Below the pieces are notes generated by a model. It was not told the DNA's origin, did not search any database, and saw only the letters and a list, made by a program, of their open reading frames with translations. The translations under genes and the position numbers were made by a program. From assembly GCA_021736975.1 (NCBI GenBank), contig JAIPET010000009.1:1-36892 (forward strand): a stretch of 36,892 nt of DNA, written 5' to 3'. This DNA comes from Candidatus Woesearchaeota archaeon (GTDB taxonomy: Archaea; Nanobdellota; Nanobdellia; Woesearchaeales; 21-14-0-10-32-9). Positions 4,380 to 34,366 of this stretch are shown piece after piece (the first letter of the stretch is position 1; each line of letters opens with the position of its first letter).

Positions 4380-6620
4380 TTATTCGTATTCTTTGTCCAT
4401 TAGTTCTTTGATTTTTTTTGCTTTAATTTTTCCAATAAGTTCTACTTCTTGTAGTTCTTCTAGTGATGCGTTTGCTATTGCTTTTATTGTTTTAAAGTGT
4501 TTTAGTAGTGCTGGTGCTAGTCTTGGTCCTATGTCTGGTATTGATGATATTATGTATTCTTGTATTTCTTTATCGTTGATTGGTTTTGTTGTGTGCATTT
4601 GCCAGTCTTTTTCGTCTGTTGATTGTTCTCTTTTTGCTATTTGTCTGAGTAGTCCTGCTGTGTCTTTTGCATTTCTTGTTTGTATTAGTGGTATTCTAAG
4701 TCCTATGGTGAGTGCGGCTAGCATTCCTCTTATTGCGTTTGGGTGTATTCTTCTTTGGCTGTATATGTCGTCTGTTCCTTCTATTATTATTAAGGGTTTA
4801 TAGAATTGTTTGAGTTCTTTTGCTTGGCTTAGTAGTCGTCCGTCTATTATCGAATCAACAAAATCTTTTACTGTTTTGTATTCTACTATTACGTGTTCTG
4901 ATAGTTGGTAGTCTCCTAGTTGCATACTTTCTAAGTTAATATTTACTTTTAGATCTAGTAGTTCTTTTATTACTTGGCTTCCTTTTTCTCTGTAGTCTAC
5001 TTTTATTGTGATTTCTTCTTCGCTTAGAAAGTCTGCTAATGGTTTGTTTTGTGTTTTACTTACGGATTCTTGTGATCCTAAAATTGTTTTTTGTTCTTCG
5101 TTATTTTTTTCATGAAGTTTGTTTTTTATGTTTTTTAGTGCTTGATACATTCGTTTTTCTTTATGGTGTGCCGCCCATTTATATCCTTCGTCTCTTGTTC
5201 CTTTTGTTATTAGTGTTATTACTTGTCCTTCTTTTTGTCTTCCTGTTCTTCCTCTTCTTTGTACGGTTCTAATTGCTGATGGTATTGGTTCGTAAAATAT
5301 GACTAGGTCTACTTCGGGAATATCAAGTCCTTCTTCTCCTACGCTTGTTGCAATTAGACAATTAAATGTGTCTTCTGAGAAATTTTCTAGCATTTGTTTT
5401 TGTTGTTTTTGACTTAGTCCGGTATTTTTTTTCTTTGCTTGTCCAACAAATATTTCTGAGCTTATTTTATCTTCTTCTAGTACTTCTTTTATTTTTGATG
5501 CTGTGTCTCTGAATTGTGTGAATATTATTATTTTACATTTTTGATTATGTTTTATGTGTTGGGTTGTTATTTCTTTTATTTTGTCTAGTTTTGGGTGTCT
5601 TATTTTTTGTTCTATTAGTTTTTCTGTTAGTATTTTTGCTGATCTAAAGTTTAAATCTTGAACTAGGTTTTTTACTGATTTTACTTTTCCGCTGCTTGCT
5701 TGTTTTTCTAAATCTGTCATGTATGAGTGTAGTGGGTTGATGTCTTGCGTTTCTATTAGTTCTATTGCGTGTTCTACTTTTAGTGCTTCTGCAACTAAGG
5801 ATATTGATTTTAGCACATCATATTCTTTTTCTCCGCTTGCTATTTTTCCTTGCAGTGCTCCTATGACTTTTAGTAGTGTTGTTTTATTATAGTTATTAAT
5901 TGCGCCATGTAAATATCCTAATTTTATTGCTTCGTCTATTTTTGATTCGTATGCTTTTTTTAGAAATCTGTGTATTCTTAGAAGTTCTTCTGTTAGTTCT
6001 ACGTGTATTGTTTCTTGTTTCATTTCTTGGATGTATTCTTTTACGTCTGGGTCGTCGTGGCTTCGGTATTCTACTTCGTCAATAAATAGGTTTGAACATA
6101 CTTCTAATATTTTTGCTTGATCTGCTCCCGGACTTGCAGTGAGTGCAAGTATTCTTTCATGTTTTGCTTTTTCATGATATTTTTTTGCTAAGAATACGTA
6201 TGCGTAGTCTTTTACTGCTCTGTGCGCTTCGTCAATTATTAATAGGGATATTTCTTCTAATTTTATTCTTCTGCTTATTACGTCATTTTCAAGTCCCTGG
6301 GGCGTGCTTATTATTATTTGGTTTTCATCAAATAGTTCTTGTCTTTTTTCAGGTTTTATTGTTCCTGTAAATAATATTATTTTGTCTTTCATTTTAGGGA
6401 AGAATTTTTTTAGGCTTTTTTCGTGTTGTCCAGCTAATGGTTTTGTTGGTGCTAAGAACATTATTTTTGAATCAGGATAATTATCTAATCTTTGGGTCAT
6501 TAGCATTGCAGCTATGGCTGTTTTTCCAAGACCAGTTGGTAAGACTGCCATTGTATTTGATTTTACTGCGGTATTAAGAATTGTTTCTTGATATAATCTT
6601 GGGGTTATTCCTACTAGCAT
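4380..6620 (-). CDS. hef: Hef: helicase-nuclease for stalled replication forks (FANCM/XPF homologue)
   Basis: A 746-residue protein of full Hef architecture. The N-terminal SF2 helicase has Walker A (LPTGLGKT, 27-34), DEAH (130-133), TASPG (162-166), a second RecA domain with IIFTQFRDTA (365-374) and motif VI QRRGRTGR (454-461). The ERCC4/XPF nuclease follows (about 538-665) with VDYREKGS and GDYQL. A C-terminal helix-hairpin-helix pair ends the protein (IPDIGPRLAPALLKHF; VELIGKIKAKKIKEL). Archaeal Hef acts on branched DNA and stalled forks. The nuclease core motif usually written ERK-x3-D reads E580-Y-K-x3-D586 here, so the arginine is replaced by tyrosine while Glu, Lys and Asp remain. The gene is monocistronic; a TTTAAAAA element about 25 bp upstream is a plausible TATA box. 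Confidence 0.95.
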   Translation of the reverse strand: MLVGITPRLYQETILNTAVKSNTMAVLPTGLGKTAIAAMLMTQRLDNYPDSKIMFLAPTKPLAGQHEKSLKKFFPKMKDKIILFTGTIKPEKRQELFDENQIIISTPQGLENDVISRRIKLEEISLLIIDEAHRAVKDYAYVFLAKKYHEKAKHERILALTASPGADQAKILEVCSNLFIDEVEYRSHDDPDVKEYIQEMKQETIHVELTEELLRIHRFLKKAYESKIDEAIKLGYLHGAINNYNKTTLLKVIGALQGKIASGEKEYDVLKSISLVAEALKVEHAIELIETQDINPLHSYMTDLEKQASSGKVKSVKNLVQDLNFRSAKILTEKLIEQKIRHPKLDKIKEITTQHIKHNQKCKIIIFTQFRDTASKIKEVLEEDKISSEIFVGQAKKKNTGLSQKQQKQMLENFSEDTFNCLIATSVGEEGLDIPEVDLVIFYEPIPSAIRTVQRRGRTGRQKEGQVITLITKGTRDEGYKWAAHHKEKRMYQALKNIKNKLHEKNNEEQKTILGSQESVSKTQNKPLADFLSEEEITIKVDYREKGSQVIKELLDLKVNINLESMQLGDYQLSEHVIVEYKTVKDFVDSIIDGRLLSQAKELKQFYKPLIIIEGTDDIYSQRRIHPNAIRGMLAALTIGLRIPLIQTRNAKDTAGLLRQIAKREQSTDEKDWQMHTTKPINDKEIQEYIISSIPDIGPRLAPALLKHFKTIKAIANASLEELQEVELIGKIKAKKIKELMDKEYE

Positions 6621-8750: not shown

Positions 8751-9410
8751 ATGAATTTATCAAAAAAATATGAAGCGAAGTTGATTTCAAACTCCGTAAA
8801 AACCCCGACGGTAAAAACTTTTGTATTTAGTGTTGATCAGGAATTTAATTTTATTCCTGGTCAGTACATTTTTTTAGAAATTCCTGGGTTTGAAATTAAG
8901 AGACCGTTTTCAATTCTTGACTTTAATAAGCAAGAAAAAACATTGAGTTTGGGAATTAAAAGAAATGGTGAGTTTACAGGCAAACTTTGGGATTTAGAAA
9001 TTGGTTCTAAACTTTTTTTTACAGGTCCTTTTGGTAGGTTTTGTTGTAATTCTGAAAAAACAGTTTTTATTGCTGGAGGTATTGGTATAACACCTATTTA
9101 CAATATGATTATTAATAGGGATTCAAAAAATGATTTTTTATTTTATAGTTCTAAATCAGAAACTGAAATGCCTTATTTAGATGAAGTTTTAAATTTAAAG
9201 AATGTTAATAAAACATTATTTTTTACAAGAGAAAAATGTGATAAGGGTTTAAATTGTAGAGTTTCTGCTAGTTATATTTTAAAGAATTTAGATGATTGGA
9301 AATATTATGACTTTTTTATTTGCGGTCCAAAAATTATGATTGATTCTTTAAAAGTTGATTTTTTAAATTTGGGTGTTAGTAAAGAAAAAATAAGAAGTGA
9401 GGTGTTTTAA
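8751..9410 (+). CDS. FNR-family flavin-dependent oxidoreductase (ferredoxin/NAD(P)H reductase-like)
   Basis: A 219-residue protein with both FNR domains. The N-terminal FAD-binding beta-barrel carries the signature KRPFSILD (flavin-binding RxYS/T motif). It is followed by GPFGRF, which fits the diphosphate-binding region. The NAD(P)-binding domain has GGIGITPIYNM (G-G-x-G-x-x-P) and ends in FICGPKIMIDSLK, the conserved CGP motif. It should move electrons between NAD(P)H, FAD and ferredoxin, or to the downstream heme membrane protein. There is no iron-sulfur domain of its own; the separate ferredoxin gene upstream could supply it. The start has GAGGT 8 bp upstream. The stop is one base from the ApbE start, implying co-translation. 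Confidence 0.9.
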   Translation: MNLSKKYEAKLISNSVKTPTVKTFVFSVDQEFNFIPGQYIFLEIPGFEIKRPFSILDFNKQEKTLSLGIKRNGEFTGKLWDLEIGSKLFFTGPFGRFCCNSEKTVFIAGGIGITPIYNMIINRDSKNDFLFYSSKSETEMPYLDEVLNLKNVNKTLFFTREKCDKGLNCRVSASYILKNLDDWKYYDFFICGPKIMIDSLKVDFLNLGVSKEKIRSEVF

Positions 9411-9411
9411 T

Positions 9412-10248
9412 ATGTTAACAGAGATTAGTTTTCCTATGTTTGGAAAGGAGATAGTTATTGGTTTTGAAGATGTTGATGATGGTATTTTAGAATTTAATAA
9501 AGAGGATATTGTTAGTGAAGCTTTAAGGCTTCAGAAAGTTTTTAATTTTTATGATGGAGATAGCGAGCTTTCTAAATTAAATAAAAATAGAAAAATTCGT
9601 GCAAGTGATGATTTTTTATTTGTTTTAAATTCCGCTTTGAAATATTGTGAATTATCAGATGGTAAATATGATATTTCTAAAGGTTTTTTATTTATTGCAA
9701 GAAAAAATAAAGTTCCTATTTCAAATATTGGTTGTTCTTATAACGATATTGTTGTTAAAGAAAATTTGGTTACTTTAGTTAATGATGATGTTTTAGTTGA
9801 TTTAGGAAGTATTGCTAAGGGGTTTATTGTTGATTCGTTAAATAAATATATTTCTGATTTGGGTTTTATTGATTTTTTTATTGATGCTCGTGGAGATATG
9901 GTTTTTAATAATTATTATTCTGAAATCGGAATTCAAGATTCTAGGTCTAAAGGTGTTGTTCATGAGTTTGTTTTAGAATCTGGAAGTGTTGCAACTTCAG
10001 GTGATTATTTGCAGTATTTTGATTCTTTTGAAAATAATCATTTATTGAACAATTCTTTTTATTCTTCAGTTACTGTTGTTCATGATTCTTTGATGATTGC
10101 AGATGTTTTAGCTACAGTCATTAGTGTTTCAGGTAAAGATTTCATAAATGATCATAAGGATTTATTTGAAAATATTCCTATTTTTGTTTTGGATAAATTT
10201 GGAAAAATTGTTTATGATTCATTAAATATTGTTGAGGTGGGAAATTGA
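9412..10248 (+). CDS. apbE: ApbE, FAD:protein FMN transferase
   Basis: The track start at GTG 9397 is replaced by ATG 9412, since GAGGTG (9399-9404) is the ribosome-binding site; this gives 278 residues. Family motifs are present: NFYDGDSELSKLN near residue 47, DLGSIAKGFIVDSL (the family's DLGGIAKGY block), DARGDM, SVATSGDYLQYF (the family's SVATSG block) and SVTVVHDSLMIADVLATVIS. ApbE attaches FMN covalently to a Thr of partner proteins using FAD and Mg2+. No signal peptide is seen, so action is cytoplasmic. It sits between an FNR-type reductase and a heme membrane protein, as in flavinylation-linked electron-transfer operons, but no obvious FMN-bind acceptor domain is encoded here. The end overlaps the next start (TTGA). 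Confidence 0.92.
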   Translation: MLTEISFPMFGKEIVIGFEDVDDGILEFNKEDIVSEALRLQKVFNFYDGDSELSKLNKNRKIRASDDFLFVLNSALKYCELSDGKYDISKGFLFIARKNKVPISNIGCSYNDIVVKENLVTLVNDDVLVDLGSIAKGFIVDSLNKYISDLGFIDFFIDARGDMVFNNYYSEIGIQDSRSKGVVHEFVLESGSVATSGDYLQYFDSFENNHLLNNSFYSSVTVVHDSLMIADVLATVISVSGKDFINDHKDLFENIPIFVLDKFGKIVYDSLNIVEVGN

Positions 10249-11117
10249 ATAATATGCTTAAATATTCTTTAATTGGTATTCCTTTTCTTGCTTTGTATAT
10301 TTTTATTTCAAGTTTGATTAGTTCAACTGAATGGATTTGGTATTTGACTAGAATGTTTGGTTTAATATCTTTTTTCTTTTTATTTGCAACTATTGTGTTG
10401 GGAGAATTAAGATTGTTGTCTTTTGTTAAGGCGGATTTTAAATTGTTTAAGTATCATGTACCTATTAGTGTTTTCACTTTATTCCTCGTTTTACTTCATT
10501 TTATTTCTGCAGTTTTTGACAAGTTTAAATGGGGTACTAATTTAGCGTTCACTGATTTTTTAGGTTTTAGTTTTTCAGATAAGTGGCTTACTTTGTTAAG
10601 TTTAGGAACTTTGGCGTTTTATTTGTTAATTATTGTTGGCATGACGTCTATGAAAAAATCTATTAGGATGCTCGGTTTTAAGAAATGGAAGTTAGTTCAT
10701 TTTTTAAGTTATGCAACTTTTGCAACTGCTTATTTTCATACAGTTAATTTAGGTACTGATATTAAATATTCAGTTTTAAGTGTTTTCCTTAAACCTGCTG
10801 TGATGTTTTGCTTTTGGTTTGTTGTCGCATTATTGATTGTTAGGGCTTTAAAGTCTTTTGATTTGTTTACTGATCAAGCTGAAATAACTTTGACAAGTGC
10901 TTTTTTTGTTATTTTAATTGTCGGCGGTATTTTTGTATCTTCAGTTATTTTTTCAGTAGCACTTGATGTTCCAAGTGATGATGTGAATTTAGTTAATGAT
11001 GTTTCTGCGGATATTGCATATTATGAGAATGCAAATAGTTTGATTATTCAGCAAAATAATGCGTTGTTTAATCAATTAATTAATCAAGGAGGTGGTTATA
11101 TTGCGAACAATAGTTAA
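10245..11117 (+). CDS. Ferric-reductase-like transmembrane cytochrome (bis-heme)
   Basis: A 290-residue membrane protein. The TTG start at 10245 overlaps the apbE stop (TTGA) and has GAGGTGG at good spacing; the ATG nine bases later would be spaced too far. About seven hydrophobic helices are visible. Two helices carry paired histidines: H71 and H85 (KYHVPIS, VLLHF) and H152 and H165 (KLVHFLSY, AYFHTV). This H-x13-H / H-x12-H layout is the bis-heme signature of ferric reductase/NADPH oxidase-type domains and the related MsrQ/YedZ proteins. It is predicted to carry electrons across the membrane from the neighbouring reductase. The C-terminal tail (about 240-290) lies after the last helix and is Asn/Gln-rich. 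The substrate is unknown. Confidence 0.85.
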   Translation: MNNMLKYSLIGIPFLALYIFISSLISSTEWIWYLTRMFGLISFFFLFATIVLGELRLLSFVKADFKLFKYHVPISVFTLFLVLLHFISAVFDKFKWGTNLAFTDFLGFSFSDKWLTLLSLGTLAFYLLIIVGMTSMKKSIRMLGFKKWKLVHFLSYATFATAYFHTVNLGTDIKYSVLSVFLKPAVMFCFWFVVALLIVRALKSFDLFTDQAEITLTSAFFVILIVGGIFVSSVIFSVALDVPSDDVNLVNDVSADIAYYENANSLIIQQNNALFNQLINQGGGYIANNS

Positions 11118-11734: not shown

Positions 11735-13663
11735 ATGCTTTTATCAAAGACTCTTAAATTCTATAAGCGAAAAGAAGTTCAAAGTCTATTAGTTCATTAT
11801 GCTAAAGATAAGGAAATTGCTGTAAGATTTAAGGATTATTTTGGTAAACGACCTGATACTTTAATGTATGATGCGGATATTATTGAGTTAGCAAAAAAGA
11901 AAGCGACTAGTTTTCATTGTTCTGAAGAACTTTGGATTAATCCGTTGCAAATTAGTAGTGATTTGAAAAAACAAGAGCTTGATAATTTAAGAAAAGGTTG
12001 GGATTTAATTTTAGATATTGATTGTCATCATTTTGTTTATAGTAAAATTGCAACTCATATTCTTATAAAAATATTAAAAGATCAAGGCATAGAAAGTATT
12101 TCGTGTAAATTTTCTGGTAATAAAGGTTTTCATATAGCTGTTCCTTTTGAAGCATTTCCAGAAGATGTTAATGGAACTTTAGTCAAGGATTTATTTCCAG
12201 AGGCTCCTAGGAAAATTGCTTTTTATTTAAGAGATAAATTAAGACCTTTATTTGAAAGAGCGATTTTAAAATATGAAAAAAATGATATTAACAACATTAT
12301 GAAAAGAACAGGTATGGCGCATAAAGATTTAGTGATGCAAAAAGATGTTAAAGCAATCATTGATGAAAATACAACTAGTGATAAATTAAATGTTGATTCG
12401 TTTTTAGAAATTGATACTATATTGATCGCGTCAAGACATTTGTATAGGATGCCTTATTCTTTACATGAAAAATCTGAATTAGTTTCAGTTCCTGTGGATA
12501 TTAATAAAATTTTGAAATTTTCAAAAAAAGAAGCGGAACCTGAAAATGTGAAATTTGATATTCCTTTTATTCAAAGAGAAAAAGCTAAATCTGGTGAAGC
12601 AAATCAACTTTTCATAAATGCATATGATTTTAATTTTGATGAATCTAAATCATCAGAAACAAAAGAACGTAAGGAGTTTAAACTTCCCGAAACAGCTATT
12701 AGAGAAGAACTTTTTCCGCCTTGTATAAAATTCGCTTTAAACGGAATGAAAGATGGTAAGAAAAGAATGCTTTTTACATTAACTAATTTTATGAGAGGAG
12801 CTGGTTGGGGTTTTGATGCGATTGAATTAAGATTAAATGATTGGAATAAAAAAAATCCTGAACCTTTAAGACAAGTTTTACTTAATGGTCAATTAAGACA
12901 ATTAAAAAAGAATAAAGATGTTGTAGCACCTCATAATTGTCCTCAAGGAGGAACTAGGTATTTTCAAGATTTACAATTATGTCATCCTGATTCTTTTTGT
13001 AGTAAAATAAAAAATCCTTTGCAATATTCTAAATTAAAATATGAGACTGAAAAAAATACTAAAGGAAAATCTGAATTAACAAACGAACAAGTTACTGCAA
13101 GAAATTTTGATAAAGTTTTAACAGAAAATATTATTGAAAAAATTAAACCTTTTGCAAAACTTTCATCTGCTAATGTTTTAGATGTTGGTTGCGGAGATGG
13201 TAAAAAAGGCAGATATTTGGCTCAGAAAAGTTTTTCATATACAGGTATTGATTTAGATGAACAAAGAATTAGAATTGCATCTAATCTTGTTAAATCAAAA
13301 AAGATTACTTTTTTTAATGATTCGTTTGAAAATTTTCAAACAGAAAAATTGTTTGATGTTGTTTATTTTATTTTTTCTTGGCGTTATATGAAAAATTTTA
13401 ATTCTATTTTAAAAAAATTAAAATCTCTTTTATCTGATAAAGGGGTTATTGTAATTGTAGAACCTTCTGAAAAAACTGAAAATTGGAAAAGTCCTTATTT
13501 AAGAAAATCAAGTAAAGATTTTGATGAAAATATTTTTAATGAAACTATTGAAAAAATAAATTTAGCAATAAATATTTTAAAAAATTCAGAAAAAATAGAG
13601 ATTATTAATAAGTCTCAAATTAATATTGATTATCATTCACTATATATATTAAGGTTAAAATAA
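11735..13663 (+). CDS. priS: DNA primase (PriS plus PriL-type Fe-S region) fused to a SAM methyltransferase
   Basis: A 642-residue protein with three regions. Residues 1-260 are an archaeal/eukaryotic primase catalytic domain: LILDIDC holds the metal-binding D94 and D96, CKFSGNKGFHIAVPFEAFP is the S-G-x-x-G-x-H motif (127-133), and RHLYRMPYSLH follows a likely third acidic residue (D227). Residues about 322-440 resemble the large-subunit C-terminal Fe-S region, with Cys330, Cys402, Cys416 and Cys422 (LFPPC; NCPQGG; LCHPDSFC). Residues about 455-642 form a class I methyltransferase: VLDVGCGDGKKGRYLA (motif I), TGIDLDEQRI (motif II), VVYFIFSW and GVIVIVEP. Fused PriS-PriL is known in Nanoarchaeum; a methyltransferase tail on it is not something I know. 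The frame is continuous throughout. Confidence 0.88.
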   Translation: MLLSKTLKFYKRKEVQSLLVHYAKDKEIAVRFKDYFGKRPDTLMYDADIIELAKKKATSFHCSEELWINPLQISSDLKKQELDNLRKGWDLILDIDCHHFVYSKIATHILIKILKDQGIESISCKFSGNKGFHIAVPFEAFPEDVNGTLVKDLFPEAPRKIAFYLRDKLRPLFERAILKYEKNDINNIMKRTGMAHKDLVMQKDVKAIIDENTTSDKLNVDSFLEIDTILIASRHLYRMPYSLHEKSELVSVPVDINKILKFSKKEAEPENVKFDIPFIQREKAKSGEANQLFINAYDFNFDESKSSETKERKEFKLPETAIREELFPPCIKFALNGMKDGKKRMLFTLTNFMRGAGWGFDAIELRLNDWNKKNPEPLRQVLLNGQLRQLKKNKDVVAPHNCPQGGTRYFQDLQLCHPDSFCSKIKNPLQYSKLKYETEKNTKGKSELTNEQVTARNFDKVLTENIIEKIKPFAKLSSANVLDVGCGDGKKGRYLAQKSFSYTGIDLDEQRIRIASNLVKSKKITFFNDSFENFQTEKLFDVVYFIFSWRYMKNFNSILKKLKSLLSDKGVIVIVEPSEKTENWKSPYLRKSSKDFDENIFNETIEKINLAINILKNSEKIEIINKSQINIDYHSLYILRLK

Positions 13664-13689: not shown

Positions 13690-13812
13690 GGCTCTAGCCG
13701 GAATAACACTTTTGTGTATACTGGCGCCCATCGAGGCACATGCAGTCTCGAAGAGAATGCATAGGTTGTGCCGTGTTCCAGTATACAAATTTATTATTTT
13801 CCGGCCAGAGCC
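13690..13812. mobile_element. MITE copy 1 (123 bp, palindromic, 8-bp target duplication)
   Basis: The ends GGCTCTAGCCGG and CCGGCCAGAGCC are inverted repeats matching at 11 of 12 positions. Inside are nested arms TGTATACTGG / CCAGTATACA and GGCACATGCA / TGCATaggtTGTGCC, closing on TCTC-GAA-GAGA, so one strand can fold into a single long hairpin. The element is flanked by the direct repeat TAATCATA (13682-13689 and 13813-13820), a target-site duplication. GC is about 48% (59 of 123 by hand count), far above the surroundings. A 120/123 identical copy lies at 34226. It has no coding capacity, so it must be mobilised by a transposase elsewhere. GGCTCT ends with 8-bp duplications resemble ISL3-family elements; that family link is tentative. 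Confidence 0.88.
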
Positions 13813-34110: not shown

Positions 34111-34225
34111 TTTGTTTGGTTTTAATACAAATAAATTTTATTAATTATTTGATTTAATATATTTTTGTACTAGTAAAAACAACGAGTTTATTATTTTTGT
34201 TGACTTTAAATATTTTTTTAATATT

Positions 34226-34348
34226 GGCTCTAGCCGGAATAACACTTTTGTGTATACTGGCGCCCATCGAGGCACATGCAGTCTAAAAGAGAATGCATAG
34301 GTTGTGCCGTGTTCCAGTATACAAATTTATTCTTTTCCGGCCAGAGCC
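34226..34348. mobile_element. MITE copy 2 (123 bp, palindromic, 8-bp target duplication)
   Basis: Same orientation and length as copy 1 and identical at 120 of 123 positions. The differences are TCTCGAAGAGA to TCTAAAAGAGA at the hairpin tip and one A to C in the right arm (TTATTATTTT to TTATTCTTTT). Its own flanking direct repeat TTAATATT (34218-34225 and 34349-34356) differs from that of copy 1, so the two insertions were separate events at different AT-rich targets. It sits between the small repeat-protein gene and the histidine kinase gene, 13 bp or so upstream of the kinase promoter region. Confidence 0.88.
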
Positions 34349-34366
34349 TTAATATTTACTTTCAAT

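Follow-up and report, generated by a model that had tools for sequence, protein, structure and literature searches.

A single-chain primase fused to a class I methyltransferase in one woesearchaeal genus

The architecture of replicative primases seldom changes, and here the only primase detected in an archaeal genome bears a folded, selected methyltransferase. The locus raises the question of whether the start of strand synthesis is tied to methylation, or the tail of the primase merely tolerates the attachment of enzymes. The window (the whole stretch of DNA that was analysed, 36,892 nucleotides) is part of the draft genome of a Candidatus Woesearchaeota archaeon (G000; 1.31 Mb, 98% complete), and the gene is an ATG-initiated open reading frame of 642 codons at 11735–13663 with no internal stops; the frame exactly opposite it contains many. 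Its features are as follows.

11735..13663, + strand: whole gene, single-chain PriS-PriL primase with a C-terminal class I methyltransferase, 642 aa (open reading frame, Pfam, sister species).
11735..12604, + strand: PriS-like catalytic part, residues ~1–290 (Pfam match at 104–256; alignment with nine relatives).
12014..12022, + strand: PriS metal-binding DxD motif, D94-I-D96 (sequence; invariant in the alignment with relatives).
12113..12133, + strand: PriS motif SGNKGFH, residues 127–133 (sequence; invariant in the alignment with relatives).
12680..13054, + strand: PriL-like C-terminal part, residues ~316–440, with C330, C402, C416 and C422 (Pfam, alignment, profile match).
13055..13105, + strand: junction, residues 441–457, a degraded remnant of the ancestral primase tail, ..KGKSELTNEQVTARN (alignment with relatives).
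13106..13660, + strand: class I SAM-dependent methyltransferase domain, residues 458–642 (Pfam, predicted fold, Foldseek).
13178..13201, + strand: methyltransferase motif I, LDVGCGDG, residues 482–489 (sequence, alignment).
13481..13528, + strand: acceptor-side family signature NWKSPYLRKSSKDFDE, residues 583–598, common to the closest free-standing relatives (alignment).

The gene is confirmed as a single-chain primase fused to a complete class I methyltransferase, and the three-part architecture that the initial annotation proposed for the one frame is borne out by Pfam, by the primase motifs, by the four cysteines and by motif I. The Pfam family DNA_primase_S matches residues 104–256 (E 9.3e-11), and the DxD and SGxKGxH motifs characteristic of PriS are both present and do not vary among the aligned relatives. 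The match to DNA_primase_lrg (residues 305–363, E 1.7e-4) is borderline (21.4 bits, with the cut-off at 22.4), and the PriL assignment is made because of the alignment with relatives and a PDB profile match, built from that alignment, to the solved PriL 9f26 (E 1.2e-5); the four cysteines, putative Fe-S ligands, lie on the same chain as PriS. Several class I models match the methyltransferase part, the best being Methyltransf_23 (residues 465–581, E 3.9e-16). LDVGCGDG is found in both species that carry the fusion, as is an acidic residue after beta 2 (GID in the window genome and GLE in its sister species).

Single-chain primases do exist, as the initial annotation noted in citing Nanoarchaeum, but they are standard in this order and not a peculiarity of that organism. 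A query with the PriL-like C-terminal part finds a match in 317 of the 353 genomes of this order and in 95 of 103 genomes of another order of the class, and a single-chain PriS-PriL primase is described for Cluster 2 DPANN generally and also for Undinarchaeota (PMC7414124). In a search for primases of the PriS-PriL type, each fused genome has one match, and the fusion is thus apparently the cell's sole primase of that type.

An assembly or frameshift error that joined two genes could produce such a frame, and both genomes examined of this genus are draft assemblies in many contigs. However, the sister species (G001, L002) carries the same fusion, with 645 codons and 67% identity over its whole length, and the join falls at the identical tail position in two species whose contigs are arranged differently and in which the genes flanking the fusion differ. 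The artefact, a highly improbable explanation, is rejected because the second species has the same fusion, and the earlier proviso that the fusion might be restricted to one assembly no longer applies. The alignment also indicates how the join was made. In other genera of the family, each of the seven complete primases terminates in an unfused tail without a methyltransferase, a basic end of the form KGRxxLTEEQKEMRRKYREK(K)n followed by a stop, whereas the fused proteins keep KGKSxLTxxQxxARN and continue directly into the methyltransferase. A remnant of the ancestral tail is therefore retained, and the domain was joined onto the tail, replacing its end. The methyltransferase is unlikely to be made separately from an internal start, because neither species has an ATG in the stretch where the methyltransferase would be expected to begin (codons 426–500 in G000 and 421–495 in G001), although TTG codons are present there.

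The fusion is narrowly distributed. Profile searches covered overlapping samples of 353 genomes of the order, 371 of the phylum and 378 of the class, prefiltered such that a few cases may be missed, and among the matches listed this methyltransferase lies within a primase only in the two species of the one genus; the survey of homologues that the annotation proposed thus yields no other surveyed genome with the fusion. The other long primase frames listed are accounted for by N-terminal over-extension or insertions (G038, G047, G316, G134), inteins or NUDIX domains. A contig scan with poorly chosen peptide queries returned one unfused Woesearchaeota primase. The fusion most likely arose once, as a lineage-specific event in the ancestor of the genus.

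The suggestion that this is simply a fusion of neighbouring genes stands in part: gene fusion is the best fit for its origin, but the donor as a neighbour finds no counterpart, since no unfused pair was found. In ten relatives, the sequence flanking the primase (up to 1.5 kb) contains no methyltransferase of the family beside an unfused primase; in G003 an unrelated, divergent methyltransferase lies beside the primase. A viral or plasmid origin was considered and rejected, with no phage matches and only generic partial methyltransferase matches in plasmids; viral contigs contain no relative of the primase, and methyltransferase matches there are weak and partial.

The predicted structure of the methyltransferase domain (AlphaFold2, from an alignment of seven family members) has a pLDDT of 89.7 and a pTM of 0.87, with helices alternating with strands as in class I methyltransferases, and together with Foldseek it points to a seven-stranded Rossmann-like fold. 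The possibility that the C-terminal part would fail to fold as a methyltransferase is countered by this prediction, which covers the last 194 residues; a model of the full-length fusion has a pLDDT of 59 and is poor in the methyltransferase part. The Foldseek hits of the domain are class I methyltransferases (E ~1e-11). The top matches are uncharacterised proteins, the plantazolicin methyltransferase, NodS and pavine N-methyltransferase, with protein N-terminal methyltransferases lower, and the named proteins among them act on small molecules, peptides or protein N-termini. Among the families listed, none of the nucleic-acid methyltransferase type (DNA, cap or rRNA) scores above its cut-off (GidB reaches 24.5 of 27 bits), and none of the NCBIfam families listed is at or above cut-off for the fused domain.

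Free-standing relatives that match over nearly the full length occur in G062, G407, G491, G427, G516 and G537. The held-out member in G537 scores 129 bits (E 5.6e-38) and a second G427 gene scores 107 bits with the family profile, with the next tier at 86 bits or below. The acceptor-side signature NWxSxxLRKxxxxFD is clear in G407 and G491 and partly kept in the other four. In an 80-row tree the fused pair groups with the free-standing relatives, with weak support and three intruding long-branched rows. With a full-length match that includes the signature, the fused methyltransferase is, judged by sequence, a member of a rare and patchy family of free-standing DPANN proteins, a small and uncharacterised family that is brought to light here. 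The free-standing genes are not beside primases, and the primase frames of genomes that have them are, where listed, of ordinary length (468, 454 and 462 aa in G062, G407 and G491). By eye, a deoxyhypusine-synthase-like gene adjoins the free-standing gene in G427 and G516 and a RadA-like gene is near that of G062; the neighbours of these genes give no consistent functional hint.

The two parts of the fusion differ in conservation. Identity between the two species is 45% in the methyltransferase part and 77% in the primase part, and crude dN/dS values, with synonymous sites near saturation, are 0.70 and 0.12 respectively. In neutral simulations at 0.75–1.6 substitutions per site, both 185-codon frames remained open in none of 900 runs, and the maximum identity was 31% compared with the 45% observed. 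The methyltransferase domain is under coding constraint, and the comparison suggests that this constraint is looser than in the primase part. The methyltransferase activity may be relaxed because its conservation is far below that of the primase part, and the domain might then be the passenger of a chance in-frame fusion, still folding and perhaps binding SAM or capping the tail with little or no catalysis. The low conservation and the dN/dS value, the confinement of the fusion to one genus and a GC content lower than that of the primase part in both species agree with this explanation. We consider it rather unlikely, however, as the frame and motif I are kept in both species, the identity is well above that of neutral simulation, and the signature common to the free-standing relatives is retained.

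A different reading has methylation coupled to the initiation of strands, the target of the methyltransferase being either something that priming makes (the 5′ end of the primer, its RNA, or nascent DNA) or a protein of the replisome. In both species of the genus the only primase detected is the fused one, and an enzyme domain has been added C-terminally to primases elsewhere, independently: G179 has a NUDIX domain there and G260 a weak match to one. The methyltransferase domain is also basic (pI ~9.3), but several free-standing relatives are equally so; moreover, the genes of the free-standing relatives do not adjoin primases and the closest of these relatives carry the same acceptor-side signature, the best matches include no family of nucleic-acid methyltransferases, and the NUDIX fusion occurs just once in its family. 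Marking of nascent strands or capping of the primer, as initially proposed, finds no direct support, with free-standing relatives in genomes that have ordinary primases and with the nearest folds being methyltransferases of small molecules, peptides and proteins. We regard coupling as unlikely, and it is doubtful that the fused enzyme methylates its own primer, nascent strand or replisome partner; if it did, it would be the first cellular primase to have methylation built in and linked to the start of strand synthesis.

The reading that we favour, with modest confidence, is of a lineage-specific fusion in which the ancestral substrate is kept and the methyltransferase is a tethered module of the primase. 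The protein would be the single-chain replicative primase of one woesearchaeal genus, in whose ancestor a small class I methyltransferase gene, from the rare free-standing DPANN family, would have joined the primase gene in frame, taking the place of the last part of the basic C-terminal tail. From what is known of the families, the primase part would make primers as unfused relatives do and the methyltransferase part would bind SAM. The latter would most likely methylate the substrate of its free-standing relatives while tethered to the primase, probably a small molecule or protein and not the primer. We infer an unchanged substrate because the acceptor-side signature is common to unfused proteins, whose genomes have ordinary-length primases where these are listed.

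That primases of this type tolerate additions is suggested by the C-terminal NUDIX domains and inteins that other members carry. The G179 primase (L109) has a C-terminal NUDIX domain (E 8.7e-18) and is alone in its family in this, and the G260 primase (L108), from another family, has a weak C-terminal NUDIX match (E 7.6e-5). The G179 fusion resembles that of the window in that an enzyme domain is added C-terminally to the same primase within the same taxonomic order; it differs in that the domain is a hydrolase, in that the fusion is in another family of the order, and in that it is found once. The NUDIX additions might point to a recurring pattern of enzymes that work close to the ends of primers, or equally to a tail that accepts additions. 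DPANN single-chain primases also seem to be interrupted by inteins, with three catalytic motifs affected (ahead of SGNKGFH, in the WD..LDID region and in the YSxxEKxGLVS region); the intein-bearing primases fall into groups of L106 (G022), L191 (G369) and L193 (G629), of L190 (G573), L192 (G355) and L194 (G562), and of L189 (G567), and Pfam confirms Intein_splicing in G022, G567 and G573.

Two further variations are seen among the relatives. One genus of the same family has two genomes (L006 in G008, L007 in G005) with all four PriL-like Fe-S cysteines replaced and a third (L008 in G002) that keeps the four; this natural loss bears on whether the Fe-S cluster is needed for priming (compare PMC5700102). 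The tail motif LTxEQKxMRRxYREK is C-terminal in primases of this family and at least two others (L110, L111, L003–L009), and may be a binding motif; it is degraded in the fused proteins.

The surroundings of the gene contain several other elements. Ribosomal protein L3 is encoded adjacent to the fusion gene, and a Hef-like helicase-ERCC4 nuclease gene (4380–6620) is near the primase; similar Hef-like genes close to the primase in several relatives (L004, L006, L008, L010, L011) form a recurring neighbourhood. Just upstream of the primase (8751–11117), genes for an FAD/NAD reductase-like protein, ApbE (E 3.5e-32) and a ferric-reductase-like membrane protein lie in a row and look like a flavin-based electron-transfer cluster. 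A near-palindromic element of 123 bp (13690–13812) begins 26 bp 3′ of the fusion gene, with a second copy at 34218–34349. It has inverted ends of the GGCTCTAGCCGG type and an 8-bp target duplication, TAATCATA; copies in L151, L155 and L156 have 8-bp duplications too. The window genome has about 14 copies at 92–100% identity, plus weaker ones, and 10 further genomes of the family have none; no Rfam family matches above cut-off. Judging by these features, the element is MITE-like.

The fusion is apparently new. The initial annotation knew of no described methyltransferase fusion, and a full-text search of the open-licence literature for a primase-methyltransferase fusion likewise found no earlier description, an absence that is not proof; in a survey of archaeo-eukaryotic primase domain organisations, methyltransferase appears just as an abbreviation in a figure legend (PMC5862659). 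The fused methyltransferase shares its fold and SAM motif with class I enzymes of Pfam Methyltransf_11/23/25/31, BpumL (4kwc), NodS (3ofj) and NTMT1/NRMT1, but has ~20% identity or less with them and a different acceptor region. The primase-polymerase PolpTN2 of a Thermococcus plasmid (PMC3973330) is also a PriS-PriL fusion in one protein, but it is plasmid-borne and highly divergent, and its abstract names no methyltransferase. The single-chain primase of Cluster 2 DPANN and Undinarchaeota (PMC7414124) has PriS and a PriL-like part in one chain with the same motifs and occurs throughout this order; the window fusion differs from the single-chain primases of the other surveyed relatives in its C-terminal methyltransferase.
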